DNA from: Bryoerythrophyllum caledonicum
Lineage: Eukaryota > Streptophyta > Bryopsida > Pottiales > Pottiaceae
Reading direction: 5' to 3'
DNA length: 64,000 bases
Assembly (NCBI GenBank): GCA_963971425.1
Contig: OZ020522.1
Span: 5,430,168-5,494,167, forward strand
Positions 16,904-37,260 of this stretch are shown here, piece by piece; the first letter of the stretch is position 1, and every line of letters starts with the position of its first letter. Both the position numbers and the translations under genes were made by a program. The notes under the pieces were generated by a model that was not told the DNA's origin, searched no databases, and worked only from the letters and a program-made list of their open reading frames with translations.

Positions 16904-17472
16904 CAGTGGGGTACCAATCAAAATGTCGTTTTTGAATTTGCAGTGAGAAAAATTTCAGTATTGCCAACTTTGAAAGCCTCCTAAGAGCTCAAAAATTTGT
17001 ATTTTACCACGAAAGTCTTACCAAAGAATTATCTTTAAGTTAATTACATGTATGCCAAATTTCAAGGCCAAAAGGCTCACCGAAAAAAGTTATTCAAAAT
17101 CTACCAACATTGGTAGCTGTGGACATTTTTTCACTGCTGCCAACTTTGATAGCCTCCCAAAGATTGAATTTTTTTTTATTTTTATGAAATTCTTGGAAAA
17201 GAAACCTCTTCATGTTAGTAACATATGATAAAAATTTCAAGGCCAAAAGATTAATACAAAAAAGAAATCCACAATCTACCAACATGTGTAGTTGTGGGAA
17301 ACAATGGGGGAAACCATTTCATTGCTACCAACTTTGACACCCTCCCAACGGTTGAGAAATTGTCTATTTACCATGAAATTTTTGGCACAACATGCTCTTC
17401 ATGATAACAAAATTCATGCCAAATTTCAAGGTCAAAAAATATATACAAAAAAAAACATTTACAATCTACCAA
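16904..17472 (+). repeat. left terminal inverted repeat of the Tc1-like element
   Basis: About 569 bp, inverted relative to 35186-35754 with high identity by eye. It is built of three imperfect direct repeats of about 180 bp, each starting CAACTTTGA (16965, 17141, 17329) and each ending near CTACCAAC.TG. Such repeats could be several transposase-binding sites. Confidence 0.85.
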
Positions 17473-18133
17473 TGTGTGTAGTTGTGAGATACCTTTTATT
17501 AAAGACATTGAAATTGTTAAAGTATGTCAGACAATCATGCTTCTTGATTGAAATTCTCCAGATGATGCAATCTCTAATCATAAATGATTCTTAAAAAAAT
17601 CAAGGATAGCCAAATTTAGTTGTGTGCACTTGTCACATCTCAGAGACTGCACTTGTTTAAAAATTGGAGACCATATATGTATGAAGAAGCTTTTTCCTCT
17701 CAATAAGAATGCTTGCATTTACAATAGAGCATTACAGGAGGTGGGATGTGGAATGATGAGAGAAGCAAGTGATGGGTGATTATTTTCTAAGCACAGGATT
17801 GAAACTTTGTGAACATGAGTGATTGAGTGCATGAAAGATGAGTTAACTGAGTAAGTCTAGGCTATGTGATAACCGAGTGGATGAGGCATGGGATGAGTGT
17901 CTGAGGATATATGGAGGTATGTGAGATTTTCTTTAAGAGTGAGTGAGGTTATAACTTACATGTGGTGACTGGTGAGGTCTGGTGAATGAGTGAAGGCTGT
18001 GAGGCAGGATGATGGTGAGTGATTGAGGATATGTGAGATTTTTTTCTGATGACTGAGTGAGGTTATAAATGTGCTCAGTGAGTGAGGCTGGATCATGGTG
18101 ATTAAGTGAAGGCTAGATCATGGTCACTGAGCG
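17473..18133 (+). repeat. Tc1-like 5' leader with GTGAG-rich minisatellite
   Basis: Between the inverted repeat and the transposase ATG. From about 17790 to 18130 it is a degenerate array of gagtgatgag / gtgagtgagg units, such as tgagtgaggttata, with no ORF. Confidence 0.55.
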
Positions 18134-18146
18134 ATGGCTATTTCAG
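18134..18146 (+). pseudogene. first codons of the Tc1-like transposase, cut off by the insertion
   Basis: ATG GCT ATT TCA G, then the Mutator-like element begins. The same GCTATTTCAG is repeated at 34188-34197, where the reading frame continues as GAT GAA ACT. This shows both the true start codon and the 10-bp target duplication. Confidence 0.85.
18137..18146 (+). repeat. 10-bp target duplication, left copy
   Basis: GCTATTTCAG, identical to 34188-34197 in direct orientation. Mutator-like elements make 9-10 bp duplications. Confidence 0.85.
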
Positions 18147-18212
18147 GGGGATTGCTATTTTGCGTGCCCAATTATGCGAGCTGCGAGTTGCGAGCGTAGG
18201 TTTGCGAGCATA
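18147..18212 (+). repeat. left TIR of the Mutator-like element
   Basis: Begins GGGGATT then GCTATTTTGCG. It contains four TGCGAG units (18174-18207). About 80% identical by eye to the inverted right end. Confidence 0.8.
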
Positions 18213-18364
18213 GAAATAAAATAATTGTGAACTTTTGGAGATAAAGTATAAGTAACCGAGCATTTATCAAGTTAGTAAAAAAAAAATTAAAAAAAAATGA
18301 AGAAAGTCATTAAAAACGGACGGAAAAAAAGTAAAGGTAAAAGTATAAGATAAAAGGGGAGGGC

Positions 18365-18560
18365 CCTATAGCCGTGGAAATGCGTGAATAGGATCAGTTA
18401 CTATGAACAAAGTTCTATAATAAGGTGTGGGGTTAAAATGGAGGTGACCTTTACTGCAACATAACTACTTTAAATACCCTATGGCCGTGGGGTTTAGGGT
18501 TCATTTAGAAAGACTGGTAGACCTATGGAAATAGCATAGGTTTAGGGTTATACAATGACG
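18365..18560 (+). repeat. left subterminal motif cluster
   Basis: CCTATAGCCGTGG at 18365-18377 and CCTATGGCCGTGG at 18478-18490, followed by two GTTTAGGGTT-type motifs (about 18491 and 18540). Matching motifs occur inverted in the right subterminal region. Repeated subterminal motifs are often transposase sites; the role here is inferred. Confidence 0.55.
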
Positions 18561-18650
18561 TTGAAGAGAAGTCTTAAGTGAGAAGAGATTAACCATAAAG
18601 TTTTGCACGCTCATGTCATACTTAGTAGCAGAGCTGATATGTTTCCACTC

Positions 18651-19716
18651 TTAACCCTTAAAGGGCAAAATCTCAGTCGGGGGGATTTCTCATTTTGGGC
18701 AGGTTCCTAAAACTCCAAAAAAAAACCTTTTTTTCTGAAATTTAAAATCTAGATTGCCCCTGATAAGAGCTTCGTGGAGATGTTTTTATTTTATATTTTG
18801 GATTTGTGGTTTGAAAGTTAGTACCACTTAGAGGGAAAAGGGGGGACTCCGGAGAACTTGAAATTTTTTGACAAAAGTTTCTATTGACATTGAGATGTTT
18901 CACACATAAAAAATATTTCCTTCTTTGGAAATTTGGAAAAAAAATTCTTCTCTTTAGTGAAAAACGGTTTAGGGTCCGACGTCAAACATTTTCACATATT
19001 GTCGATCAACGGGGGAAAAAAAATTCATCTTTTCTACATAAAACCTACAGATCTTATACTTCACTTTTTATTTTTTCAACAACAATATGTGGTGAAAACC
19101 TTCTTCTTGACCATTTGGATTATCATTTGAGTACATACGTAGTTCACAAAAAATTTAACGTGAAAAGGCAATTTTTGAACCTCCACTCCTTGCACACTTG
19201 TTTTGAATATGCTACACCCCTATTTTACCTAAAAAATGTCGCGTGTTGGGAAATAACATCATGCTTAAGACAACGGTAAAAGATTTAGACCTTGTACAAT
19301 GCAAAAATTTGATACAAAGTGAAGTCAAAGTTTGATAATCACCTCAACAAAGGGAAGAAAATTTACCAATGTTTTGACTTTAAACACTAAAATCTATCAA
19401 TCTGATGGATTGCAACCAAAATTTAATGGCATGTTTATATAGAAGTCTATTTTCATATCTTACGGTTGAAAGTCCAAAATTCTCTTTAAAATGTGATTTT
19501 CGTGACTTCATTTTTTGGCAGTGGCGGTTCTGGAGGCTGACATTAGTCGGGCAGACCCTAGCAGCTATTGTTGGGGGCCCCAACGGCTGTTGTTGGGGCC
19601 CCTTTAGCTGTTGTTGGGGTCCCAATCAGTGCGGATGGGGCCCCAACAATAGCTCTTAACCCCTAAAGGATACAAACTCCTCTTGGTTCAAGGATACAAA
19701 CTCCATTAGGGGTTAA
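18651..19716. mobile_element. piggyBac-like MITE (copy a)
   Basis: Starts TTAA-CCCTTAAAGG and ends TTAGGGG-TTAA, the target and terminal pattern of the piggyBac superfamily. Its body matches copies at 40575-41527 and, inverted, 41541-42390. Shared landmarks are the stretch near 18935-19080 and cctccactccttgcacac. No transposase ORF. A 61-bp mini unit with both ends, 19656-19716, sits at its right end, so the true border may be 19659. Confidence 0.65.
19560..19655. repeat. GC-rich palindromic repeat
   Basis: Four units centred on GGGGCCCC or a close variant, with tgttgttgg spacers. The outer parts (agctattgttggg and, at the far end, ccaacaatagct) are inverted copies, so the segment can fold as a hairpin. 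Confidence 0.55.
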
Positions 19717-20122
19717 CATAAAGAGTCCTGAAGTGGGATGGACTCTTACATATTGTTGTGGGTTTTGTAGTATGCAGTAGGGTCATAGATAGATGTATGG
19801 AGTTATTCTGATGAGGAGTTGTAGTGGACATGGAGTTAAAGGCGCTGTGCAATTTGGGGTATTAGTACAGTACCAGAATCAAAGTAGGTATTTAGGAATT
19901 AGTGAGTTTAAAAGACTCACGAGTAGAAGAGGAAGGTTGAAGGACTTGCAAAACTAGGTCACTGTACATGAGTAATCAGGAAAATGAAACTCAAAGAAGG
20001 TGGATTGGTGGATTGTGTGCGTTGGTCAGCATATTATGTGGTAACAGGACTTTGAAACCAGAAGATAGATTTAAAATGATAATGGCCAAACAAAAACAAC
20101 ATCAAATATGTTCTCAGAATTG

Positions 20123-23100
20123 CTAATCAACGGAAGTGTCTGTGGAAGGTGATCGGTTGAAAATCTCCACCTCGGCTTCATCATCAATAAAACAACAAAC
20201 ACGACGATCGTAAGTAGGAACAGACGAAGTCAAAGATGGAGATTGTGCAAGAGCTTGTACAGTTGCAGCTGCCGCATCCCAAGGCGCCATGACGAAGTCT
20301 CGGACTGGGGATAATTGTTGCTCAATCAACCTGTCCATGTCAACCAGAATAGAGTTTTAGACAGAATAAAGACCTGCAGAATTGGAGAGCAATGTAGAAT
20401 CAAACTTACTTACTCAATCTAGTTCTCTTTGAAACTCTCCGAATGGGGACGTCCACGTCAATAAGCGGACGACCCTGAGCAACAGAGGAAACACGAGCTA
20501 CTGGAGGACGCCCCTGAAGAAATGGCTTCAAAATGGCGTTGAAGATTGAAATGTCGTCGTCGAGTGCTACGATATGCCGGCCCGCTGATTTGCAAGCACG
20601 AATTCCATTCCCTGCAATGAAAACATAATAGTAAATGATGGAAGCAAAACATGAAGCTGGAATTAGAGACCACTGATGCATGTAGAATGATAAAGTTAAG
20701 AAATTACCGACAGAGGCGAAGGCATCCAAGACGAGGGAGCCAGGTTTTGTCAGCGCCTCAATGAACATCTCAATGAAGACTGCGTCTTTCTCACGGGGGC
20801 CCCTCCAAGGAACCGAGCCGTTCATCGACTGAGACTCCTTCGAAGTAAAATTGAACAACACATCCGAATCGCCAACTCCCATGCCCAATGCAGTGTGTTC
20901 ATCATTAACAGCAATATGAAAGTGATCAGCACCAAGCTTGTCATGAATGTAGAGTTGAACCTTGAAGCGCTTGCTCTGAAATTAAGAGAACATATAGAAT
21001 GGGTTAAAATGCACGACCCAAGTTAAGAAGTTTAGAGGAAAAATTTAACAAGGTATACCTGAACACCAGGAGAGAAGAACGACGACAAGGGGAGGTCGTT
21101 AATGCCCCACCACTCACGAATTGGTTGAAAGCTATAAGCAGCCGCGAATGACAAAACATCAGCTTTTATGTTCGGGACGTCTGGAACAAACAGAAGAACA
21201 GCCCCCTGAGCTTGAAGAAAATGCTCAGCAAACTCGAAAAGCGTCTCCGTGTCCTCGACGGCATACTCATTCCAGAGTGGGATGTGGCCTGAGTTCTCGG
21301 AGACGGTTGGAACCATCATGCCGTCCTTAAGGTCTCCGATAATCAAATCGAAGCCGCTATGCGGACAATGCGCTGAAAGAGACATTGTACCACTCTCTTT
21401 CTTGACCTGAAATGGATGATCAGTAATATTTGAACATAAGTTCAGAGCAGAGATAACCAGACAAAAATAAGCGATCTCTCAAGAGGAAATAGAAGTGGAA
21501 TGAAAACAAAGAAGAAGATTACAAATGAAAATGAAATAGAAAATGACTGCCGATATCGGCAGTGCGTCTTCAAATCCATGGAATGCATACTCAGTTCCAA
21601 GAAAATGACTGCCAACATCGGCATTCAGTGGTGCATGTAAGAAAGAAAAATAAAAAGCCGCAATATTCAATACATTGGCAGCACATGTGGCAAGATTGAC
21701 CAGTTTCAATATAGGATAAGCTGCTATAAAAAAATTGTAATGCCGTCATCCACATGTAAACCTCAACAACAACAATGTAACAAGATTACAAATTAATCAA
21801 TAATCCCGAAAAAAAATTGCATGAAGAATATAAAACAAGTCAACAGTAAGAAATATGAGATTGATAAATGGTTTCAAGAAAAAGAAAACAGTACCTCCAG
21901 GGCAAAATCGTTAAGTCCTTCAAGACTCGGATGAACGTTTGGAAGAGCCTCCATAATCTTTCTGATACTAGAGTTAGCAACGAAAACACGAGATTGAACT
22001 GAGTTGGCTGGCTTGGTTTGGGACTTCCTTGAAGCCGCACGCCTCTTGAGGTTTTCAGAGATTATTGAGACGTGGCTGGATTGGCCAACTTCAAGATCAA
22101 CAGCCTGTGCCTCAGGGCAGGATGCAGAGATGAACGGATTAACTTCCGCTGCAAGGTCTGGGACAAGGACACGAAAATCCATATCGTAAGTTGCTGATAA
22201 CATCTAAAGGAGAAATCGACCAGATTGTGATCGAACTGACTCTGATCTGGTTCTCAATTAATTAATGTAGATTGTATGAAGTTACAAGTTTTTGCAGGTT
22301 CTAAATTTTTTCCATACCTATCCAATGACACTATTCATGCTTCAAAATTCCTCATACATGATATATGATAATCACGATCAAAGTTTAAATACACTGTAAG
22401 GGTATGCTGAAATCTGCCCAAAACTGCAATATGTACTCATTCACTCTCAAAACCTGCCGAAAGTCAATTAGATCGCAGTTACTCGAAAGATTCACCAGAA
22501 ATTAAGATTTTACTGTTTTCCGATGTTTGTTTTTCGTACCTGTAAAAGAGGTAGTAAAGCATGATCCCGACGTTTGAATTTTGAATCCAATACTTTATTA
22601 CACGCCTTTTTAATTGTTGAAAATGGGCATCTGTATTTCTATTTCAGCATACCTCCATGTGAAAAATTGAGCATTTCATTACGTTCTATAGGTCCTACTA
22701 GTGTATAAATTATATGGACATATTCCATACTCACATGGGAACAAAAATTTAAAGAGCCTAATGTCAAATGTCCTTTCAAAAATGGTAATTTTGGGCCCTA
22801 AAACAGTAGTTCTCCATTCTACAACTAGGAAAAAATCTTTTTTTTCAACTTTGAACAATATGATCTTACAAATGATGAGGAATTTGAATCTAAGATTCAG
22901 TTTAGGGTATACATGTACAAGTTACGTACTAGATCTTGCGGTTACATACTTCAGAAATTGTCCAAAAATAAAATTTTATCTTGCATCAAAAGAGGGTAGT
23001 ATTGAGGGCTTTTGGATGACTTGAGGCCACTCACCTATAGGGGTTAACATAGACTCCTCCGGTGTCGGCAGGCTGGATTCGGCGACGGCGGCCTCCCCCA

Positions 23101-26100
23101 ACTTTTTCGCATTCTCTTCCACCAGAGCTGCCTTCAGTTTAGTTAGTACCGCAATTTCTGCTTCAGCAGCCTTTTTCTTTGCCTCTTCTTCGGCTTTCCT
23201 CTTTGAGACCCGTGGCTTCTTTGTTGTGGCTTCAGCAACCGGCGGTAGAACAACCGCTTCCGAGCCAGTCAAAGTTGGCTGAATCCCGTTACGAAGTGAG
23301 ATCTCGAACGATGGTGGACAATTCACTGGGCAGTCTAAATACCAGCCGCAAGTTGTAAAATGCTCTTGACCCCACCTCTTTGCAATCTCGTCGGTTATCA
23401 TGCAATTGTCACTTCTTCTATCGAGGTATCCAGGAAAGAAAGCAGGAGTTTTTAATACTGCATTCTGTGGGAGAAGCACAAAGTGATAGTACCTATAAAG
23501 AACTCTAGCAACCGCCTCGGCAAGTCCCTCCTGGTCCTCCGGTTGTTTATTCTTATGAGTTTTGTTGGCCTCGAAATCTTGAACAAAAGCCAGATCCCAG
23601 AGTTGAATCCGCATCTCCTCAACGTAATCTGCAAGACACTTGACAACGCATTGGCCTGGAGGGTGATAGTCGATGGTGACATTAAGATCAGACAGGGAGG
23701 CAGTGAAGAGGTCTTCAACTTCAGTGGCAATCTGGCAACAAGCAAGGAGAATTTTCAGGATACTGTACCAATGTAAATTGACTAACAGGTGCATAAATAA
23801 AACTTACCTGTGCCCACCAAGTCGCCTTGTGCAGCCACTCAGGGAAGGAATGGTCGGTAAACTTTGATCGAGGAAAGCGGACGGCTGCCCGAAGAGATGC
23901 TGGCATATTCCATCGCTGCAACCACTTGAGCTTCGTTGCTGCATCCATAGCCGAAGTGGCTAAGTACCAGAGCTTTTCCTGGGTCATTTCAGAGTCATCT
24001 TCGTGGTTCTCGTAGTGCTTTCGAACCTCCTCAAGGAACTGTGGAGAGTGCTTCGGATCAGCTATTGGAAGTTGCTTCAATACTTCTGACCGTCTGTCCT
24101 TCCTAATCTTCGCAACGGCTCTCCCAATGTCCTCATGAAGCGTGGTTGTGTTCCACTCACTCGATTGTTCAGGAAACTTTTCCTTAAACTTCCTGGTGGC
24201 GTGGGCAACTGCATCGCCTAACTCTTGCTGAAAAAAAACTATATTAGCAATTGTGGACCTAAATTAAAATTCAGAACTCATGGCAAGGAAAAACATTATG
24301 ATCACAACAAAATCGAAGACGCAGTGAGAAGAGCCAGCCTGGGTGCAAAAAAATCATAAATAGAACCGAATTTAAATTCCGCAATCGGCACAAACACTTA
24401 TGGAGGGCCACCTCACAGACTAAAGGAAATGATCAAGAGCAAACCTGGTAGAGAACAGTTATGAGTGCATCGACTGTCAATGTGTACCAGGTTTGGTGGT
24501 TAGAAGACTTTTGTTTCTTGTCCGCGTTCGCAAGGTCTTCCGTCGATACCAAACCCTCGAAAAACTTCAATGGCTGGCCTGCGATGTTTTGCATGCGATA
24601 CAACTTGTGCACAAGGTTTAGTTTAACGTGTCCTGTTTGATTTCGCCTGCAGTTCAATAAAATTTGAATTAGAGACCGTGTAAGAAAGAACAGATATTAC
24701 ATATGAGTTAAGAGGTTTACCAATTCACTTGGTGGAGCGCAGATTGAACCCGCCCAACTTGCCCTTGGACTTCTAGAATGATTGACTCAACGGCATAATG
24801 CCAAGCTGGGTCGCTCCCATGATCCCTATTAATTATGGGCAACCAAGCCGCTAGCCTGTGATTTCCATCCCAAACAAAAAACATTTTCCCAGAAAATTGC
24901 TTCCATACCTCCTCTCTCATTAACTCAATCTCGAAGTCACTGTTTGCCTTAAGCCACAACAGGCTCCAGCTACCTTTAATAGCATCAGAGACATCCTGCG
25001 TTTTGCCATCATTATCATGAATTGAAACGTAGAAAACTCCCTGGCCATCCATGTAGCCAGTGCTTACAAACTGAGCTCCAAGAGCCATGACATCATTCTT
25101 CAAATATGGCCTAACCGCAGCAAGAGGCAACATTCTGCACAAAGGAATATTAAGCTTTGACTTATTCCGGGGTTTGAATCGCCGTTCGTCAAGAATTAGA
25201 TTGGTATTGACTGACTCCATGACGACTAACTTGTCCATCTCCCTTCCAAGCTCCTCTGCTGTCATTTGTGCGGGAGGCAAACGAGTGAGCTCCTCGTTAT
25301 CCATGTTATCAGGGTCCACCAAAACAATCCTAGTTTCGACCTCGTCGGCCTCAGCACCTGCGGCCATAAAGAAAGTCAGTGAACCCCGACAATATAGCAG
25401 CTCAAACCCTGAAATGCAGCACAACAGAAATGATCTAATTACCAGCCATGAATGTATGAGGTTCCGTCTGATGAGATGATGCTACAGAAGCCCCGCCACT
25501 AGCTGCCGGTTCTTTGTCCACCGATTCTAAAATTCAAAACCACAACATCAAGATAATGATCGTAGCACAAATCATCCATAGCGATATTGCTTGAAGGACC
25601 ACTAAACATCGAAAGAACAGCAAACACATAGAGCCCCCTAGCCTTGCCATTATCCATGAATAAAAGAAATTTAACAAAAAAAATAAAATTCAGAAAACGC
25701 GGCGAAGCATATCGCGGAAGAGCTGCCGACAGCGGCAGCCCTCCCGTGAGGGTGCCGCCATCGGAGCTGGTGCTCCACGACAGGTGTGAATCCGATTTAT
25801 ATGTACAGTGAGGTTTCGAAAATTTGGTTCACGAGTGAGCAAACGGCAGGGATCGCAAGAAAGTTGAATCAACACCGTCAATGTTCCTTCGGTAGATACA
25901 TGTCGGGTCTCGATGCAGAGCAGCTAGAGGTTTCAGAGGCTCAGTCCATGAACCTATCGATCCTAAATCAGTCTCTATCAAAAGCACAAATAAACTCCAT
26001 CTTCCGGTCGTGAGCTGGAATCAATTGAGGCAATTCACTCCAAACAAATTTTAACTGGCGCCAAGGAATTAGTACTCCATCACAAATAGCAACTGGTTTC

Positions 26101-28832
26101 AGAAACAAAAATTCAGTAACTCTAGACTTCGTGCATCTTTTTCGAATCCGCAAGATGCTTGAATCCCAACTTTATTCACACATCAGATTAGCACACCAAG
26201 CGGTCTCAACCAGACCAAAGATCCAGTCTCTTCCTAGGCTGGTCATGTTGAGCGAACTGTGGTCGAGCCCCAATCGTGATTAATGACAACGGCCATCAAA
26301 CCCTTCGTGCAAACGACATACATTTCAGATTCTGTAAGTCGGCAGACGCTTCGTTCAGGGTGCACAATCAGTATTGAGCAACCTAGGGCTCGGGAGCGTA
26401 TCCGGAATTACCCCCCCCAGAATAAGATGTCGGTGACCCTACCAGAGCATCAGCTACTAATCGAAATAAATTCTCCACCTCACCACACTCAAACGGCGCT
26501 CGCGGTGCACCATCTGTAGCTCCCAATGGGCTTGTCAAGGCGGCAGATCCTATAAAGTGGATCGCGGAGGCGCCGCTCTCCGGAGCAGGTGCTCCAAGGA
26601 GGTGCTGCCGCTGTCGGCAGCACCTCCTTGGAGCACCAGCTCCGGAGAGCGGCGCCTCTCTGGAGGTGCTGCCGCTGTCGGCAGCACCTTCGGGGAGCAC
26701 CAGCTCCGGAGAGCGGCGCCTCTCTGGAGGTGCTGCCGCTGTCGGCAGCACCTTCGGGGAGCACCAGCTCCGGAGAGCGGCGCCTCTCTGGAGGTGCTGC
26801 CGCTGTCGGCAGCACCTTCGGGGAGCACCAGCTCCGGAGAGCGGCGCCTCCGTGGAGGTGCTGCCGACAGCGGCAGGCCTTTGGGAGGCGTCGCTCTCCG
26901 GAGCTGGTGCTCGTTTCGAAAAAAAAATTCTTTGAAGAGTTTTTGCAATTTGCAGAGTGCAATCAGGATCCTAAAAGCCTAGGAGCCAGAATTGAATATT
27001 TGGAAGAAGGATGAAACGAACCAGCAAGGCTTGTGTCTCTGATGTTCTCCGACTCTCCATTCCCATCATCCATACTATGCAAATCGCCTTCACCTGCAAG
27101 ATTGCACACGTTTCATGTTAACGAAGCCATTTCAGAAATGTAAAATGGAAAAATATTTCATGCCCAGAATGTTGCAGAGCTCCACCGAAACGCAGAGCTC
27201 GTGAGGTCAGCTCCTCTGCGAAGCACCTGGTTCGAAAAATCAAAAACCTAGAACTCCTTTCAAACGACTATCGAACAGACTCCAAGAACCCCCGATAGTA
27301 AATGGCAGTGATCTCCTGGAAGGTTACATCACACCTGTGCAAGGCACCGAGGCGCCCACAAACAGACTAATCCTCATTCTTGTCGAAGAACCACTGCTAT
27401 TAACTCTTTCACTAACAAGATCAAGCACATGCAAACCTCCAAGAAAGAAGCACAACGCTCCGCAAAAGTAGCACCTCGTTGTGCAAGGAAATGATTGTGC
27501 GAGGTATTGGGAGCGACCGCGTTGGTTCTTCGAGGAGAAGGAAATCGATCCCGCTAGTCCACCGTCACAGAGCCGCAATCCCTGCTGCGAAACTATTTTT
27601 GAAACTCTATAGCGGCTCACTGAAGATGGCAATTAACGGCCGAAGAAGTAGGTCGCCAAAGAACCAGGTCGCCAAAGAACCAGGTCGCCGAAGAAAAAGC
27701 TAGTCGCCGCGTTTGCTAGGCTACGACACGCAGTTGCCCTGAGACAATACCATCAACACTCAATCTTCGAGCTGGACAAAAAAATAGAGGCCACCAGATC
27801 AGGTCAACTAAAACAGGGATGCCGGCTCTTCATTCACTTCTTTCCTAGAAACTACATACGAACGAAGGTCAGCGCCTTCGCAGGGGTACTGCCGATAGCG
27901 GCAGCCCTCCGGTGAAAGTGCCGCCAGCGAAAACAGCCGCTCCTTCGCACGGAGCTGGGCCGCTTCATTGAGGTGACTCTAGGGTTAGCGCTTCTGGCCA
28001 GTAACTCCTTACCTCATGTTTTAACTTCTCACCTTCATAACGCAATCCCAAACTACAAGGTAGTGGTTCAAACCCTAGAATCATCAATTAGTAATAGTAT
28101 AGAAGGAAAAAACAGACCTGAAATCCCGACCTCTCGATTGTCATTTGATTCTGCTTTTCCTTCATTCATACTTTGTGAGTCCTCTTCGCCTGCACGGTTT
28201 AAGTTCAAATCATTCTTATTCGCCTAAGAGCTAAATATTTCTAAACTATGCCAACTGAATCTGTGAATTACCTATTAATCAATTAGCAATGCTAAGACAA
28301 TGTTTTCAAGTTTCATGATTGCTGAAATGTTTATTAAAAGAGTTTTTTAGAGGCTGTTCTATAGTTTCAAAATTCTGATTCGACTTGATCTAGACGGGTC
28401 AAGAAACATACTGTGCAAAGTAGAAGATGTTCAATCGAACCACCGGTACTAACCTTTGTCCACCCTGGCATTCATTACCCGTTTTCTTCGACATTCTCCA
28501 TCATCCTCCTCACTACTCCTGGCGCTTTCGCTGCCTCTGACAGTCTCTGGTTGTCTCCGTCCTACCTCGCTTTCGCCAACTTCATGCAGATGAACCTCAC
28601 CAGCTCCATCCGTCTCGTCTTCAACTAATCTTGAGTTATCGAACTGAAGCACTCGTGTGATATCCCCAACATCTACAAATCTTGCAGAACTTCTCATCTC
28701 CCTCATCAGCCTTGATCGATTTAGTTGCTTTCGGCTCGAAAAGAAAAAAGACTGCTTCCTCCGCTTCTTCTGCATTGTCCTTGAATTGGAGAATACTGCC
28801 CCCAGGTAGTTATACCTTTTCATGGCGGTCAT
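20123..28832 (-). CDS. ParB/Srx-like domain fused to a degenerate DNA methyltransferase, 13 exons
   Basis: Exons by splice signals: 28832-28454, 28189-28118, 27093-27022, 25526-25443, 25357-24721, 24646-24445, 24227-23808, 23731-23035, 22193-21895, 21406-21059, 20975-20708, 20611-20410, 20330-20123. Phases agree at every junction, giving 3888 bp and about 1295 residues. The ATG at 28832 is the first after an in-frame TAG. A charged, SR-like N-terminus comes first. A ParB/sulfiredoxin-like domain spans about 270-410, with FVWDGNHRL at 364-371. A basic NLS-like KKPRVSKRK is near 793, then a coiled coil (802-835). The C-terminal methyltransferase fold is in beta order: motif IV position FDLIIGDLKDG (about 979), then motif X/I TKPGSLVLDAFASVGNG (about 1147) and AGRHIVALDDD. 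The catalytic D/N-P-P-Y/W is absent, so methylation activity is doubtful. It diverges from the transposase gene. Confidence 0.8.
21546..21563. repeat. perfect 18-bp palindrome ACTGCCGATATCGGCAGT
   Basis: Lies in an intron of the ParB-methyltransferase gene. An imperfect second copy (actgccaacatcggcatt, 21608-21625) follows 62 bp on, with the same preceding aaatg. Best-preserved member of a palindrome family found only between 21.5 and 31.8 kb. Confidence 0.85.
22680..23047. mobile_element. piggyBac-like MITE (copy d) at the end of exon 8
   Basis: The right end reads CCTATAGGGGTTAA (TTAA at 23044-23047). The left end is a diverged match to the family start (tctataggtcctactagtgt). The last 13 coding bases of exon 8 (23047-23035) and the splice donor ATAG|GTGAGT come from this terminal repeat. 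It is deleted relative to the 1-kb family members. Confidence 0.6.
25722..25739. repeat. palindrome GCTGCCG-acag-CGGCAGC
   Basis: Seven-base arms around four bases, in intron 4 of the ParB-methyltransferase gene. Followed by gccctcccgtgagggtgccgcc, similar to the sequence after the copy at 27888. Confidence 0.8.
26560..26915. repeat. tandem array of 64-bp palindromic units
   Basis: Units start TCCGGAGAGCGGCGCC at 26641, 26705, 26769 and 26833, spaced exactly 64 bp. Each contains GGTGCTGCCG-ctgt-CGGCAGCACC. The first unit is the centre of a larger palindrome of roughly 45-bp arms (26567-26663) with one mismatch. GC-rich, in intron 3 of the ParB-methyltransferase gene. The ORFs in all frames here are by-products of the repeat. 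Confidence 0.9.
27888..27905. repeat. palindrome CTGCCG-atag-CGGCAG
   Basis: Core 27889-27904, in intron 2 of the same gene, inside a GC-rich patch (27860-27965) that shares the flank gcagccctcc with the copy at 25722. Confidence 0.8.
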
Positions 28833-29378
28833 ATAAATCGACTAGTTCAAAATTCACGTAGGGTCCATTAGTGGGTTCTTGATTCTAGAAGATCATATCC
28901 CTGGCACAATCCACCATCACATATCCACCAAATATGGCACGCATTCATTTTCATACTTCTGAGATTTTTTATAAGAAAATGATTAAATATTTGCCGCCAT
29001 TTTTAAAAGTTGTGGTTTGTTGCACTCGCATCAGGGTTTTGGAATGATGGCCACAATGTTTATGATTGTAATTTGCCCTGCCTGACAGAAATTGTTCTCC
29101 TGCTGGCAACCAATATAGAATACGACAACCGTTGGATTATACTTTTCTAGCACTGAATCTTTACATGTCAGAGATCTTCGCTCTTAAAATTCGGCGGCAT
29201 ATCCCAACCACTCTACTCTTCAGTAGTTACTACCAGATCTTCTCAGAACATACGCAATAATTATCAGAATTCCATCTTCTCACTGGCGCTTCCTAAAGAC
29301 CGAGACCTCTCAGAAATTTATCATTAGCCTTACTATTCACTCTTCTTTTGCGTTACATCTCCTAGTTAGATTCATCTC
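28833..29378. promoter_or_regulatory. shared divergent promoter region
   Basis: 546 bp between the ATGs of the ParB-methyltransferase gene (minus) and the transposase gene (plus). No ORF. AT-rich with several TATA-like stretches. No palindrome of the CTGCCG family was seen here. A common control of both genes is inferred from the layout. Confidence 0.45.
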
Positions 29379-32300
29379 ATGGCGTCGTCCCAGAATTCGA
29401 ACTTTGGATCTGTTCTTATTCGAGCTGATGGTCAAGCTATTCCCATCTCCTTTCCAGTACTTGAGGATGGTTTCGCTACTGTTTCTGGAAGTCGTTTAGC
29501 AGCTCGGTTTTGCTTCGTAGAGCACAGTCTTCATGTTGACATGGATGTTCTTGACCCCGTCTCAAACGACCTAACTCATACTGTAGCTCAGATGCCATGC
29601 TCCACAGATAGTCCAAAGACATGATTATTAGTTTCCGGTACCTATAGAGTCTATGGGACTAGAGACTATACCAATGACATTTCATTATCCAATCTAACCC
29701 CTGGTCATTGTTCAACAACGAAGGATGTTACTCCTCTTCTTCGGAAGGTGAAACTTGAGCCGCTAGATGAAACCGTTGTCCAGCTCAGTGACGACTCAGA
29801 TAGCGACTGCATCCCAATAAGTTCCCTACCGAGCGTTCCTCGACCGAAGGTTGTCGTCAGTGTTCCTGAGTCCAGTTCCCCTCTCAGTGATCGTCGTAGC
29901 AATTGTAGACCTCCTCTCCCTCCTAAAGATAGTATTGTGCATTGCCTTTGTCTTCTTAGCACCCGTCGAGGTTCAAAGTCTGTACTGTCAAAGCTTGATT
30001 ACAAGTCAATTCCTGTTCGAAAGGTTGATTTTCTTCCTCCCGAGTTTGATGGAGATGTTATCTTCGAACTTCCGCCTTTGGGAAAGTACCCCTCATCGAC
30101 AAAGGCAGGTCATCTCCAAGGAATGGACAAGCGTGATGACGGTCACGCTTGGACCCGAACTGCCACTACACATATCAAATCCGAGTTTAATCTCACCTTT
30201 CGAATGTCTTCCTGTCTAGGCGACCTCAAGTGTGCCAATGAATCATGTGATTATCTTAAGCGTCCAAACAGGATGTCATCCGTGAATGAAACTGAGTGGG
30301 AGGGCAATTCTGCATCTCCATTTGTTCCTGGTCGTGACCCACCTCATAATTCCACTGTTGTTTGTGCTATGTGTCAAGTTCCGCCCACTTGTTCTGGATG
30401 TTGCCTAGCAAAGATATACTACATTCTTGGCGAAAGCCATATGACTCGTGCTTGCATCCATTTGGGTTCACACGGTCACGTTGTGAAGAAAGGAAACTAC
30501 CGGGACTCGTCAGCAAAGCTTCGTTCCCTCATTAGCGACCAAGTGGAGCGAACTCCGGCTGCAACAAATTCTTCTATTGTTCTAGAGGCTAGCAAGGAGT
30601 ACCTTGGGGAGCTACTGCTATGCCCAGATGGTGTTCCACAGAAGACTCTGGCATTTGAAGAGCTTGTCCCCGTCTTGGACAAGTTTAAAGAGATGTCTTC
30701 ACCTAGCATTCGGAATGAGGTTACAACGTTCCGTTACCTTCGCCGTTTTGGTGTAATGGATAGCATCACCAAACTTAGAGGTTCCAGCAACTGGGCCTTC
30801 ATCCAGGAGAATCGTTTCCCGGGCCAAGGGACGGATTCTGATAAGGCCTTCATCTTCAAAATGGCTGAATTGGGTCCGGGAAGTGGAGTTGACTTAGTTA
30901 AGCGAATGCAACCCGGGGGTGATTTGCAGGATTCTTGGATGATGTTCGACCATGTCAAACGCGTGAAATCATGGACCACAATGGCTTGCCATGTTTACGA
31001 CTCCACTTACTGTAAAGTCATGACTATAGCAGTCTGCGATATGCAATCTGAAGATGTTGCAGCCCAGCAAGTGTTCTGGCGCAATCTTAACGCAGTCAGC
31101 AGCAGACACGACTTGCCCGATCCGAATTTCAAAGGATTCATGGCTGATAGCGCTCAGGCTAACTGGAATGCTGTTCGAATTATATACGGTAGCGGCGACC
31201 CAAGCGTTCCCATGGAGTCCCGAGAAAGAACCTGTCTTTTTCATTGGGCTCAGTCTCTAGAAAAGCATACAAAGGCAGATATTCGAACTGACCTTCAGGA
31301 TCAGCACCGAACGCTTTGTAAGCAATACAAGAATTCCATTTCTTTGGAGGTGGCAGAGTGCAGGTACTTGGCAATAAGGGCCTGGTGGTTGTCCTCCGGA
31401 GCGGCAACTGATGAAGCCCTTCCACGACTGGAGCTCTGGCTAGCTTTTTGGCATTTCCGATATCGGCAGTGGGGAGGATTCATGGAGCTCGTAAGTTTAT
31501 CTGTAACTCTTTCTCTAAATTGCATCTATTTTTGTCATTTGTCATCCTCATACATGATGCATGTTCCGCTCACTTAAAATACTTCAATTATCTGAAGTTC
31601 AGTTTCCTTTCTTGAGTACTGCCGATGTCGGCTATGCCTCCAACCCTGCCCGACGTCACATTAATCTTGGCTTCTTTGTGACGGGATTAGTTTTTCCTTT
31701 GCCGATATCGGCAGTACCTATGAGGTGTCTCAGTTCAGTTCTCTGTCAATAAATCTAACGAAAACGCCCATCAAGATTGCCGTGTTCGGCACTGCTGCGA
31801 GTAATCCATTCTTCACGTAATCACCTTTTCCAGTAGCGTCATGCTCTTGTATCATGTGCCCTTCTGTTCTTGCGATTCAATCTAACAGTACTGGATCTTA
31901 TTTTTCTGTAGAACCTCAGTGAAGCTGAACTATCGGAGATGCCATCCTGTAATCTGGCCGAGTCCGTTCATAACAAGTGGTTGCAACAGTCAGGAAAAAG
32001 AGGCAATGATTTGTACGTTGCTTCAGTAGACGACATGGTTCGTGCTTTCATGCAGGTTGTTGCGTACTACCAATTCCTGAAGGGGGAGAAGCCAGGTACG
32101 GGTCCAGGAAAGGAAGAACTGCGGCTCCGTACTGCCCACCGCACTGCCCAACGTTCAGGAAATGCCAAGGTCCTTCATTCAGCCCTTGCCAACATGCCTG
32201 GTGCGGACGAATTCTGTATCCGCACTCCTCACCTTGAAGGAGAAGAGGAGTTTGTATCCTTGAAGAGAAAAGCTGACCTTCCTCCTGGATCTGAATTTGA

Positions 32301-33357
32301 TTCACATCGCCCGGATAAGATAAGCGTCTCCCGCCCTAGGGGTAAGGCACGTCGCCTTGATCAAGTGATTGTCGACCTCACAGCAGAAGATCCTCCTGTG
32401 TCTGTAAATCGATCTCCGGAAGCTCCTCAAGTATGTCTTTCATCTCCGCTACCATCATCCCGGACTCGACATGTCAAAGCTGTGCAGGAGACAATATGTG
32501 ATGAGAATGAATGGCACATTGCCAGACTTCCCAAGACATCTGCTAGAAAATGTTTCGCTCTACAAGCCGGTACGAGAAAGAAGTGTGTGGCCACGATTGT
32601 GCAGAACAACCGAGCGACAGCTGCCCCTACATACAGTGGTCTGATGGACAATTTCAGGAAGACGAGATTGGAGAGACATCGGTTCTTCTTCTGTAGCGAC
32701 GACATTCGACGTTGTGTTATGGGCACAAGACGCAAGTGGGTTCAAAGTATGCCTCCCCCCCCGACGTTCTGGCCAATTCAGATGGGCACTAACCTGAGTA
32801 AAACGGAGATACTTGCCTTGGAAAATGCAGGGTTCTGTCTCGCTGAGCGTGAGGTTTTATCTCCTCGCAAGCTGTTTGGTGAAGGTGTCTCCGTGAACCT
32901 GAAAGATTATGTTGCGCCTCTAAACCCTACAGAGCATCCAACCAAGCGGTACGGGAAGAACATTCGAAGAAACGACGCTGCTCCTACTACTCGACATCAT
33001 AATAGCTGCGCCTCAGCTCTTTCTATAATTGGAAAAATTTGCTCGATTTTGATGGTTCCGCCCCCAGCGTTGGGTTGCATTGTGACTTTGGAATCTCGAA
33101 ACATTTCCACAATTTCCCGATATTTCGTAACAATTGGCCAGTTTCCAAGCTGCGACTGCCTGTCTTTTACAGAGATGTCCAAGAAATCACTCGGCAAACG
33201 CGGTTCCTGGACTTACTGTAAGCACCTCTATTACATCTTTAACATTGTGTGTGGTTTAGACCCGGAGGTAGATCTGTTTATTCACGCCCCTAGTTTCAGC
33301 TGGAATGAGATAAAGCGAATTGTTCAGATTGTGCTCCTTAAATACTACGGTGCATAG
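29379..33357 (+). CDS. MULE-type transposase with C-terminal SWIM zinc finger; one in-frame TGA
   Basis: Exon 1 is 29379-31490 and exon 2 is 31912-33357 (donor CTC|GTAAGT, acceptor TGTAG|AAC, phase 0). ATG at 29379 has a good context (CTCATGGCG). One TGA at 29622-29624 breaks the frame, which continues open directly after it. Exon 1 carries a Cys/His-rich region (CANESC...CAMCQ...CIHLGSHGH), possibly WRKY/GCM1-like. The MULE core follows: FDHVKR (D near 523), VCDMQSED, FMADSAQANW (D near 588) and ERTCLFHW (the C-x2-H mark). Exon 2 has a SUMO-interaction-like VIVDLTAED and a SWIM finger CDC...YCKH (33149-33224). About 1185 codons. Expected role: cut-and-paste transposition in the nucleus. Confidence 0.8.
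31615..31793. repeat. three CTGCCG palindromes in the transposase intron
   Basis: ctGCCGATGTCGGC at 31619-31632, TGCCGATATCGGCA at 31700-31713 (perfect 14 bp), and ttGCCGTGTTCGGCa at 31778-31792. A partial copy (CCGATATCGGCAGT, 31457-31470) is within the coding part of exon 1. Confidence 0.75.
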
Positions 33358-34121
33358 CTGGCATTCGTACTTTTTGGATCTTGTACTGAGTCACTCCTTC
33401 CATTTGAAAGGCGGTGAGACTAAAAGGGCCACCTCCACAGTTTGTACATCTTGTCCCTTAACCTTGACCCTAAACTCTAAACCTTCTATTGACCCTCCTC
33501 AGTCTCTGTTTATTCTATTCCAAGCTCACCCTTACCTCTTAAAACTCCCTATATCTCTCAAATGAAGTGGATTTGTTGGCTATTATCCTAAACCAAATTA
33601 TCATGTCAATCTCTTGAATGAACCACTTCCTACTGGACTCCCATGAGACCTTGACGCCGTTTAGTCTAAGCCTATATCTTTCGTTTTCCATGACTATCTA
33701 ATCCTAAACTGTCGTTGTGGCTCTACAGGCCTATGAAGCTCTTGCTTTTACCCTTACTATCTGTACATCTAATTCGTACTTTCTAAACCTCCCCTAAAAT
33801 TAAACTACGATGAGTCGACGACCCTAAACCCTACCTCTTACACTATCATTTGTTCTGCCCCGAACCGCTCCAGAGCTTTACATCCTTGGGTATCCTATCT
33901 GCGCTTCATTGTAGAACAATAGATCCACGGCCATAGGCCCATTCAAAAAGAAATTTAAGCCAAATTGTCAACTTTACAACCCGTTGCGTACAATACGTAC
34001 ACTATACTCCACGGTAATAGGTCCATAAATCTATTGGTTTCAACAATAGTTACAAAACAAAACCCATTATACTTTCACTTCTTATTGCATTTTTTAACTT
34101 CTAAACAACATATTTGCCCTC
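33358..34121 (-). repeat. right subterminal region of the Mutator-like element
   Basis: No ORF of note. Minus-strand motifs match the left end: CCTATGGCCGTGG (33925-33937) and CCTATTACCGTGG (34009-34021), plus several TTTAGGGT / GTTTAGG units between 33455 and 33840 that resemble the plant telomere repeat but are not in tandem. Confidence 0.5.
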
Positions 34122-34187
34122 AAGGCTCGCAACCGTAGGCTCGCAGCTCGCAGCTCGCAAAATTGGGCTCGCAAAATAGCTTGGTCC
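34122..34187 (-). repeat. right TIR of the Mutator-like element
   Basis: Read inward on the minus strand: GGACCAA then GCTATTTTGCG, with the same TGCGAGC units as the left end. It ends at 34187 against the target duplication. Confidence 0.8.
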
Positions 34188-34197
34188 GCTATTTCAG
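34188..34197 (+). repeat. 10-bp target duplication, right copy
   Basis: GCTATTTCAG, equal to 18137-18146, and in frame with the Tc1-like transposase (A-I-S). Confidence 0.85.
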
Positions 34198-35192
34198 ATG
34201 AAACTCGTGCTCGCATAGTAGGTTTGAGTGAGGCAGGGAAGACAAGAGTTGACATTGTAGCTGTTGTTAGAGTCCATGTTAGAACAGTTCATAGGGTAGT
34301 GAAGAAATTTCGAGAAGATGGAACCTATAAGTGCAAACCTTGTGGTGGAAGTCATGCTAAAAAGCTTAGTGATAGAGATGTACGTGCTATTATACGTGTC
34401 TCAAAAACTCATCGTCCCTAGACAGTCTCTGAGATCACTAATATATGTTCTACTCAAGTGTCTAGATCGACTTTTCGAAGGGCCTTACATGAGAGTGGCA
34501 TTTTCAGTCGAATTGTTGTTAAAAACCATTTTTTGACACATCGTCACATGTCTAAACGATTGGCATTTGCTCAAAAGTATTGTGGGTGGACTATAAAAGA
34601 TTGGGAGAGAGTTGTTTGGACAGATGAGTCTACCTTTGAAGTTGGAAAAAATTCTAAACAAGTTCATGTTTGGAGAAATGCATATGAGCGCTATTCATCA
34701 AGTTGTATAGTTCCAACTTTTAAGAGTGGGAGAACTTCTTTGATGATTTGGGGTGCATTTGCTAGAGGGCAAAAGTCACAACTTGTTTTTATGCCCAAAA
34801 ATAGACGTTCTACGAAGGATTTTGTTGAAGTGGTCTACAATGTTGAATTGCTTCATTTTATGAGTAGAGTGCCACAGGGATTGCTCATGGAAGATGGCGC
34901 ACCTGTCCATCGTAGCAAAGTATGTGAAGAATGGAGACAAACACACCTTTTGGAGAAGCTCGATTGGCCTGCAAATTCTCCCGATCTCAATCCAATTGAG
35001 AACCTTTGGAAGATTTTGAAAGATGCTGTGCAACATCGCCCAATATGTCCAAAAAATTTAGATGACTAGAAGGTAGTTATTGAAAGAGAGTGGAGGTTAA
35101 TCAATGGTACAAAGCTCCTTCAACTATGTCATTCTATGCCCTCTAGGTTACAAACAGTGATTGAAGCAAATGGAGGACATACACGTTGGTAG
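34188..35192 (+). pseudogene. Tc1-like transposase (DD34E), two nonsense codons
   Basis: With the ATG at 18134 this makes about 335 codons. A helix-turn-helix N-terminus (ISDETRARIVGL...) comes first. The catalytic core follows with WTDESTFEVG (D1), MEDGAPVH (D2) and SPDLNPIENLW (E); 34 residues separate D2 and E. It ends GGHTRW*. In-frame TAG codons are at 34419-34421 and 35067-35069. Both fit TGG (Trp) to TAG by one G-to-A change, and relatives have Trp at the second type of position. Plant mariner-like elements are usually DD39D, so a DD34E Tc1-type gene is less expected. Confidence 0.88.
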
Positions 35193-35754
35193 ATTGTAAA
35201 TATTTTTCTTGTATATATTTTTTGACCTTGAAATTTGGCATGAATGTTGTAATCATGAAGAGCATGTTGTGCCAAAAATTTCATGGTAAATAGACAATTT
35301 CTCAACCGTTGGGAGGGTGTCAAAGTTGGTAGCAATGAAATGGTTTCCCCCATTGTTTCCCACAACTACACATGTTGGTAGATTGTGGATTTCTTTTTTG
35401 TATTAATCTTTTGGCCTTGAAATTTTTATCATATGTTACTAACATGAAGAGGTTTCTTTTCCAAGAATTTTATAAAAATAAAAAAATAATTCAATCTTTG
35501 GGAGGCTGTCAAAGTTGGCAGCAGTGAAAAAATGTCCACAGCTACCAATGTTGGTAGATTTTGAATAACTTTTTTTGGTGAGTCTTTTGGCCTTGAAATT
35601 TGGCATACATGTAATTAACTTAAAGATGATTCTTTGGTAAGACTTTCGTGGTAAAATACAAATTTTTGAGCTCTCAGGAGGCTTTCAAAGTTGGCAATAC
35701 TGAAATTTTTCTCACTACGAATTCAAAAACGACATTTTGATTGGTACCCCACTG
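35186..35754 (-). repeat. right terminal inverted repeat of the Tc1-like element
   Basis: Inverted copy of 16904-17472 with the same three 180-bp subrepeats. Its inner edge overlaps the last transposase codon and stop. It ends CCCCACTG-TA at 35756. Confidence 0.85.
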
Positions 35755-35970: not shown

Positions 35971-36758
35971 CTACCACCTAGTGCTTCCACCTCTAGCTGA
36001 GATCACTGCTTTAATACGATTGGGCATAGTTGAAATGAGGCATTTCAATTGCTCTAAAGGAACCTCATCCCATACTTTCTGAATGCATTCTATCAATTCT
36101 TGCTTATTTTGTGGCATGCTATGGTAACGAAGCCAATCTTTGAGTATCTTCCAAATGTTCTCAATTGGATTTAGATCAGGTGAGTTTGAAGGCCACTTCA
36201 ACTTCTTCATGCCATAAGCTAGTCTCCAATTCTCTGCCAACTTACTTCGATGAACAGGAGCTCCATCTTCCATGAGAGTGAGGTCATGAGGATCATCGTG
36301 CATGAAATAAAACCCGCTCAAAGTGCTTTCATACACATTTTTCACAAAATGTGCAGCAGTTCTTTCTCCTTGAGGCATAATGACTAACGGGCATTTGTCG
36401 AAAACAGTAAACGCACCCCACGTCATCACAGATGTCCTTCCAAATTTGAAGGTAGGCGCCAAACATTCTGTCATATAGTTTTCGTAAGGTTTGCGCCATA
36501 CTCGAATTTGACGAGAATTCTTTCCAAGTTCAAATGACGATTCATCTGTCCAAATGACCTTGTACCAATCTTGTTCTGTCCAATGCTTATATTTGCGAGC
36601 AAATGCTAACCTAGTTGCTTTCTGCACTAGATTGAGGTATGGCTTCTTTGAAGCAATGCAATTTCCAAAGCCCAGATTCCGAACATATTTTCGCATGGTA
36701 TTGTGATGCACCTGATATTTTGCAGCAAGACTAGTGAGATGTTGGCGTCGATCTTGTT
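35971..36758 (-). pseudogene. Tc1-like transposase, N-terminally truncated (left arm and centre)
   Basis: The minus-strand frame runs from the centre leftward. It has part of the DNA-binding domain (RQHLTSLAAKYQVHHNTMRKYVRNL), then WTDESSFELG (D1), MEDGAPVH (D2) and NPIENIW (E, DD34E), ending GGSTRW* at 35971. No stop is seen in the remaining part. Everything before the helix-turn-helix is missing because the inverted arm starts there. Confidence 0.88.
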
Positions 36759-37260
36759 GACAGAATGTTTGGCGCCTACCTTCAAATTTGGAAGGACATC
36801 TGTGATGACATGGGGTGCGTTTACTGGTTTCGACAAATGCCCGTTAGTCATTATGCCTCAAGGAGAAAGAACTGCTGCACATTTTGTGAAAAATGTGTAT
36901 GAAAGCACTTTGAGCGGGTTTTATTTCATGCACGATAATCCTCATGACCTCACTCTCATGGAAGATGGAGCTCCTGTTCATCGAAGTAAGTTGGCAGAGA
37001 ATTGGAGACTAGCTTATGGCATGAAGAAGTTGAAGTGGCCTTCAAACTCACCTGATCTAAATCCAATTGAGAACATTTGGAAGATACTCAAAGATTGGCT
37101 TCGTTACCATAGCATGCCACAAAATAAGCAAGAATTGATAGAATGCATTCAGAAAGTATGGGATGAGGTTCCTTTAGAGCAATTGAAATGCCTCATTTCA
37201 ACTATGCCCAATCGTATTAAAGCAGTGATCTCAGCTAGAGGTGGAAGCACTAGGTGGTAG
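36759..37260 (+). pseudogene. Tc1-like transposase C-terminal half (right arm)
   Basis: Inverted duplicate of the left-arm coding region from the segment before LAPTFKFGRTSV to GGSTRW*. It differs at only a few residues (GF for VF, DN for DD). It carries D2 and E but lacks D1. Confidence 0.88.

Follow-up and report, generated by a model that had tools for sequence, protein, structure and literature searches.

The question raised by this locus is whether a 16-kb segment of Bryoerythrophyllum caledonicum DNA constitutes a single transposon that carries, beside its transposase gene, a gene for a ParB-like and methyltransferase-like protein and, if so, what that protein might do for the element. 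We examined the segment within a window (by which we mean the whole stretch of DNA that was analysed, 64,000 nt in length), where the element occupies 16,041 bp, from position 18147 to 34187. Its features are collected in Table 1. In all, 15 loci were read: the window copy, 10 taken by best left-end match (c1 to c10) and 4 (B, D, E and F) picked from more diverged matches to the ParB exon or the left end.

Table 1. Features of the element and its insertion site, in window coordinates
Feature	Position	Strand	Remarks
Target-site duplication, left copy	18137-18146		10 bp, perfect, GCTATTTCAG
Left end	18147-18223	+	GGGGATT, then terminal inverted repeat 18154-18223
Accessory gene	20123-25367	-	Hand-made model; 9 exons, GT-AG junctions; predicted product 1,096 aa
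Degenerate beta-class N6/N4 DNA-methyltransferase domain	20410-21406 (exons 6-8)	-	From profile matches
Palindrome	21549-21560		ACTGCCGATATCGGCAGT; in the accessory-gene intron that separates exon 5 from exon 6; a looser copy lies at 21608
ParB/Srx-like N-terminal domain	24721-25367 (exon 1)	-	From sequence motif and alignments
Divergent intergenic region	25368-29378		4 kb; 7 palindromes, at 25725, 26607, 26671, 26735, 26799, 26863 and 27891
64-bp tandem array	26598-26866		Within the intergenic region
Transposase gene	29379-33357	+	Exons 29379-31490 and 31912-33357; SWIM-type CxC...CxH near C-terminus
Transposase intron	31491-31911	+	Palindromes at 31621, 31701 and 31779
Right end	34111-34187	-	Terminal inverted repeat 34111-34180, plus GGACCAA (read inward)
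Target-site duplication, right copy	34188-34197		10 bp, perfect, GCTATTTCAG

The sequence-only reading of this DNA had described inverted ends of about 66 bp, a perfect 10-bp direct duplication and 2 divergent multi-exon genes in the interior, and each of these was borne out. We observed that the inverted repeat extends over 70 nt with 83% identity, and that its alignment score of 48 compares with a best score of 28 among 500 random window pairs. The repeat begins 7 bp inside the ends of the element, the outermost 7 bp being unequal on the 2 sides. The left GGGGATT was identical in 10 further copies, which had been chosen by left-end match, and the terminal 18 bp of the right end were identical in the window copy, c3, c4, c6, c8, c9 and c10. 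These outer bases, being shared among copies, are therefore part of the element. In the subfamily represented by D (L050/L051), the 2 end types are swapped relative to the genes.

The host site is a Tc1-like transposase gene, into which the element inserted a few codons past the ATG; when the flanks were joined and a single copy of the duplication was kept, the Tc1-like frame was restored (MAISDETRARIVGLSEAG...), save for one TAG downstream. At 16942-17477 and 35181-35716 lie the inverted repeats of the Tc1-like host element, 537 bp long and 97.6% identical to each other. Two more Tc1-like transposase pieces, on opposite strands and alike over part of their length, were seen at 35971-37257.

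In searches of the 437-Mb genome, 40 of 325 candidates for the left 114 bp were scored matches (5 of them at 100%, including the window copy), as were 150 of 1,768 for the ParB exon. Both ends, together with a 10-bp duplication proper to the locus, were found in 8 of the 15 loci. The duplication was exact in 6 of these (window copy, GCTATTTCAG; c3, CTCTGGAGTC; c4, AACCATACCC; c6, CTCCATTTCG; c10, GGTCTTCATC; D, GTCAGGTTCC) and had one mismatch in c8 and c9. The right end was not found in the stretches read for c1, c2, c5, c7, B, E and F; c1, c2, c5 and c7, with no right end in 20 kb, look interrupted, nested or deleted, and exon calls for these 4 copies, cut at a false right end, were left out. 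The full nine-exon accessory gene and the transposase exons were present in the window copy, c4, c6, c8 and c9. Copy c4 is 99.1% identical to the window element, with both genes open and no stop, and c6, c8 and c9 have 1 or 2 stops per gene, as read in the columns of the window copy with inserted bases relative to that copy dropped. The D element is 12,353 bp in length; tblastn picked up all of its accessory exons except exon 5, with protein identities of 38-65%, and its transposase exons are at 51-69%. Gene order, exon order and orientation were the same in the 5 full copies and also in D and E, at 33-80% protein identity. The sole transposase found at B runs in the opposite direction and may belong to another element, and at F no transposase was found within 18 kb.

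The unit of both genes between shared ends is real, the window element belonging to a numerous family, and the proof that had been proposed for it, namely several loci with both genes between the same ends and with different duplications, was obtained. Copies with the same ends and no methyltransferase gene had been named as contrary evidence; the one copy seen that approaches this description is c2, which retains its left end and lacks, by internal deletion, the part with the ParB exons.

The designation Mutator-like was upheld in part. In its favour are the length of the duplication (10 bp in 8 of the 15 loci, within the 8-11 bp characteristic of MULEs), the long terminal inverted repeats (those of the window copy and, in D, 69 nt at 90%), a CxC...CxH of SWIM type and what may be a DDE triad. 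The C-terminal CxC...CxH was invariant in 18 of 18 aligned sequences, the SWIM profile itself matching weakly and in 3 of the 18; the candidate DDE residues (D459, D508 and a glutamate encoded past the intron) were conserved in at least 90%. Relatives of the transposase numbered 126 at E <= 0.01 (at least 120 among the matches listed). On the other side, Pfam MULE/Mutator models gave no match to E=0.1 in 47 + 18 family members, nor any up to E=1 with the window protein, and we therefore call the element MULE-like rather than a proven MULE. The window copy of the transposase gene has an in-frame TGA (29622-29624), which was absent from all 7 copies having that stretch (c3, c4, c5, c6, c8, c9 and c10). 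The sole relative from the genome-contig search, a 4.1-kb contig filed as uncultured cyanobacterium (L001:1-4101), encodes a member of this transposase family, with an intron-like gap in its gene, and the transposase only; it is probably eukaryotic contamination of that assembly.

In the predicted product of the accessory gene, about 540 aa separate the ParB-like and methyltransferase domains. The join between exons 4 and 5 of our model is a chosen acceptor, and exon 4 might instead run to its own stop codon. The E subfamily, however, has the 2 halves in a single unbroken frame that no intron interrupts, and B, D and F have them in one frame with a single stop each; the fusion of ParB and methyltransferase parts is therefore a trait of the family and, judged by these reading frames, is real. 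We found 39 relatives of exon 1 in public assemblies (E <= 0.1, 347 candidates), one of which continues into exon 2 past the same intron position. The whole 1,096-aa product used as query gave no match, probably because the collection searched holds single-exon frames. The viral contigs scanned gave no relative.

Of the 2 domain names given by the sequence-only reading, ParB is sustained chiefly by a motif: D167, G168, N169, R171 and L172 were invariant in the 40 aligned exons, so that the GxxR nucleotide-pocket motif is present, as DGNxRL, in 40 of 40. Profile matches were weak and were to DndB, in 2 of the 40 sequences with a best E of 0.0059; DndB is described as a ParB-superfamily protein (PMC10853773, PMC12704722). 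For the ParB part there was no Pfam ParBc match, no ParB-type model in NCBIfam and no significant match in the PDB.

The methyltransferase name stands for the fold and is doubtful for the activity. The spliced protein matched N6_N4_Mtase (PF01555) with E=3.8e-5 and 24.2 bits, below the 26.7 cut-off, the unspliced exon frame having given E 0.01, and RsrI and DpnA were among the matching solved structures (E 0.003-0.016). Comparison by hhalign with 11 phage enzymes gave 95-97% over the motif-I part (96.7% over 63 columns), the profile alignments with methyltransferases spanning this C-terminal part only; the position of motif IV is our reading of FDLII.D. At that position the presumed catalytic motif reads DLIIGDLKDGM in the window copy, B, E and F and DLILADIPDGM in D, whereas in 11 of 11 phage enzymes the motif keeps D and P and ends in Y or F. 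The aromatic residue is gone in all 5 subfamilies, the proline in all except D, and [DNS][PIL]P[YFW] is absent throughout the 1,096 aa. Motif I is altered as well, reading FAS[VI] in all 5 subfamilies as against G.G in the 11 phage enzymes, with serine replacing the first glycine. The altered presumed catalytic motif makes methylation by the accessory protein doubtful. Moreover, since identical altered residues recur in diverged copies under selection, the comparison suggests that the methyltransferase fold is a conserved non-enzyme rather than a decaying enzyme. The phage sample comprised 18 fetched loci, from which 6 proteins were Pfam-scanned, 11 were aligned and 1 more was read; the ParB part was absent from all the enzymes so treated. 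Our alignment A1, compared with phage methyltransferases, gave no match, as expected.

The selection just mentioned was estimated by comparing the window copy with c6, c8 and c9, respectively. The accessory gene gave dN/dS ratios of 0.27, 0.33 and 0.25, the transposase ratios of 0.23, 0.29 and 0.20. Within the accessory gene, the ParB half (exons 1-4) gave 0.21-0.29, and likewise with c5, and the methyltransferase half (exons 5-9) gave 0.32-0.40. Between the window copy and c4 there are too few changes for the ratios to carry weight (5 and 4 for the accessory gene, with a ratio of 0.36; 4 and 1 for its methyltransferase half, with a ratio of 1.22; 7 and 1 for the transposase, with a ratio of 2.11). 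By these ratios the accessory gene is under purifying selection, as is the transposase.

The non-coding parts of the element contain a short palindrome, GCCG-N4-CGGC. All 11 sites in the window fall within the element, and none of the 11 overlaps an exon. Outside the 64-bp array there are 6 sites, where shuffling predicts 0.03 (and gave no more than 2 in any of 300 shuffles). When 2,304 half-site patterns were ranked for the window copy, D, E and F, GCCG-N4-CGGC came first in the window copy (tied with the shifted form TGCC-N6-GGCA), D and E; in F the shifted form ranked first and GCCG-N4-CGGC sixth, other patterns of the array also outranking it. Eight complete copies (window copy, c3, c4, c6, c8, c9, c10 and D) contained 45 sites in 114,881 bp inside, versus 0 in the 84,919 bp outside, made up of flanking and window sequence, the count leaving out c1, c2, c5, c7, B, E and F; the 8 copies are related, and their sites are therefore not independent. 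Single copies had 3 to 11 exact sites, with 3-4 in each of c3 (which has an assembly gap), c5, c6, c8, c9 and c10. No detected exon was overlapped by any of 30 sites in 6 further copies or by any of 75 in B, D, E and F, which with the window copy makes 11 loci checked. The 4.1 kb of L001 held no site. In the window element, a 52-nt direct repeat (25712-25763 and 27878-27929), 81% alike and with one palindrome in each part, lies in the intergenic region.

In the stretches read we counted 7 sites in B, 11 in E and 53 in F. At F (L054/L055), the region at about 8.5-17.3 kb after reversal, upstream of the ParB gene, is a tandem array that repeats roughly every 127 bp and contains 49 palindromes. 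The right ends of B, E and F were not found, and some of these sites, above all those of the F array, may therefore fall outside the element. At 7.9-8.1 kb of the joined D stretch there is a perfect palindrome with 88-bp arms around one GCCG-N4-CGGC core. The core and its 4-bp spacing were constant in the 5 subfamilies, in which arms and array units vary. The bases next to the core were mostly CTGCCG..CGGCAG in the window copy, the same in 7 of 7 sites in B, GTGCCG..CGGCAC in 4 of 4 in D, and mixed in E. A co-variation of site and protein would rest mainly on D, the sites of the window copy and B being nearly the same. Within the loci read, we have shown GCCG-N4-CGGC to be element-specific, to lie in introns and in the intergenic region and to be present in the 5 subfamilies. 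An element-specific short motif repeated in non-coding parts is a trait of the VANC type, and it was found within the loci read.

From the observed features (a two-gene unit with its copies, a fused accessory protein, both genes under selection, an altered motif and a palindrome) we infer a function. A twofold-symmetric site, VANC-like repeats and an available ParB-like protein lead us to propose a ParB/parS-like, VANC-like system, that is, a MULE-like family whose accessory protein binds the palindromes and counteracts silencing, a proposal that, drawn from sequence comparison, seems to us evenly balanced between being right and wrong. The accessory protein would bind GCCG-N4-CGGC as a dimer through its ParB part and might load as a clamp and spread along the element, and host silencing would be excluded from the occupied element or reversed there; the methyltransferase fold would serve as a reader of DNA or DNA methylation, or as a scaffold, and not as an enzyme. 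Bacterial ParB is reported to load at parS and to spread with CTP (PMC7053999, PMC8367383). A fuller version, possible in our view yet on the doubtful side, holds that a phage-type ParB-methyltransferase was recruited as an NTP-dependent clamp with a dead methyltransferase, which loads at the palindromes, spreads and shields the element, protein and site changing together between subfamilies.

Several other explanations bear on the same observations. That the second gene is a host gene captured by chance, a Pack-MULE-like passenger, is very improbable. Gene capture is common in plant MULEs, and c2 does lack the ParB half, but the identical gene order, exon order and orientation in the window copy, c4, c6, c8, c9, D and E, together with selection on the accessory gene, speak against a passenger, and we rejected this reading on the conservation of the anatomy across diverged subfamilies. 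The transposase is also a candidate reader of the palindromes, and it is conceivable, although rather unlikely, that these are transposase sites, or hairpin-forming repeats spread by tandem duplication, with no relation to the ParB protein. Such an origin would suit the palindromes inside the transposase intron of the window copy, D and E, the long-armed palindrome of D and the long array of F; it accords less well with a core and spacing kept in 5 subfamilies while arms and array units changed, and with sites that, in the window copy, D and E, occur both scattered and in arrays.

We consider it unlikely that the accessory protein works as a DNA methyltransferase (N6-adenine or N4-cytosine) and marks the element's own DNA, as the authors of the Ectocarpus study suggested for theirs (PMC12477816). 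The match to beta-class profiles and the purifying selection on the domain with respect to c6, c8 and c9 would agree with an enzyme, but the loss of the catalytic-motif aromatic in the window copy, B, D, E and F, of the proline in all except D, and of the first glycine of motif I in all 5 would not. Equally concerned with enzymatic function is the idea, which we hold to be quite improbable, that transposition or repair of excision sites is aided by an NTP-regulated nickase or NTPase activity of the ParB part; nicking endonuclease activity is described for the bacterial ParB-methylase Bce_0392 (PMC5512222), yet on this account the conserved palindromes are left without a role.

The sequence-only reading knew of no such gene pair in a plant transposon; the partnership has a precedent, accessory genes of the ParB-methyltransferase kind being already in print for algal transposons (PMC12477816). 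In the account given there of Sola1-1_Ec32 from Ectocarpus, with which green and red algal transposons are cited, the accessory gene lies, as here, on the strand opposite to the transposase; its product has 1,104 aa (1,096 aa here), both proteins having ParB-like and N4/N6 DNA-methyltransferase domains, and the element is likewise large, at 21.5 kb. It differs in having a Sola transposase where ours is MULE-like, the accessory proteins being likened by description, and the part of the account available to us mentions neither a binding site nor an altered catalytic motif (PMC12477816). At the level of titles and openings of abstracts, the papers listed gave no other such gene in a Mutator-like element, nor a binding site, which is not proof of absence. 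What is new relative to the earlier work is the different type of transposase, the presumed catalytic motif without an aromatic in 5 of 5 subfamilies and the element-specific palindrome. Should the methyltransferase be dead, the earlier suggestion of self-modification would have to be revised for this branch.

To our knowledge, there are few systems in which it is understood in detail how transposons escape silencing. VANDAL21 is a MULE-type element, and VANC, the anti-silencing protein of the Arabidopsis VANDALs, has, so far as we know, neither a ParB nor a methyltransferase domain. An extra protein is found in both systems; long inverted ends mark the elements studied here. As in our elements, the VANDAL21 motif is described as short, with copies in introns and upstream regions that increase by tandem duplication and differ between subfamilies; the VANC motif, YAGTATTAY, is non-palindromic, in contrast to the palindrome described above (PMC5735166).

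The ParB-methyltransferase fusions reported from phages and bacteria (Bce_0392, PMC5512222; PMC12704722) resemble the accessory protein in joining a ParB-type fold to an N6_N4 methyltransferase and in their association with mobile DNA. Our gene differs from them in being eukaryotic and having introns, in the approximately 540 aa between its domains and in its altered active site. With ParABS our system shares palindromic sites and the invariant R of the GxxR motif, the site itself being different and Pfam ParBc giving no match. A candidate protein and a candidate site occur together in diverged pairs, so that recognition and co-evolution are directly testable; if the ParB part does spread like the bacterial clamp, a prokaryotic principle of DNA segregation would be at work in nuclear chromatin.
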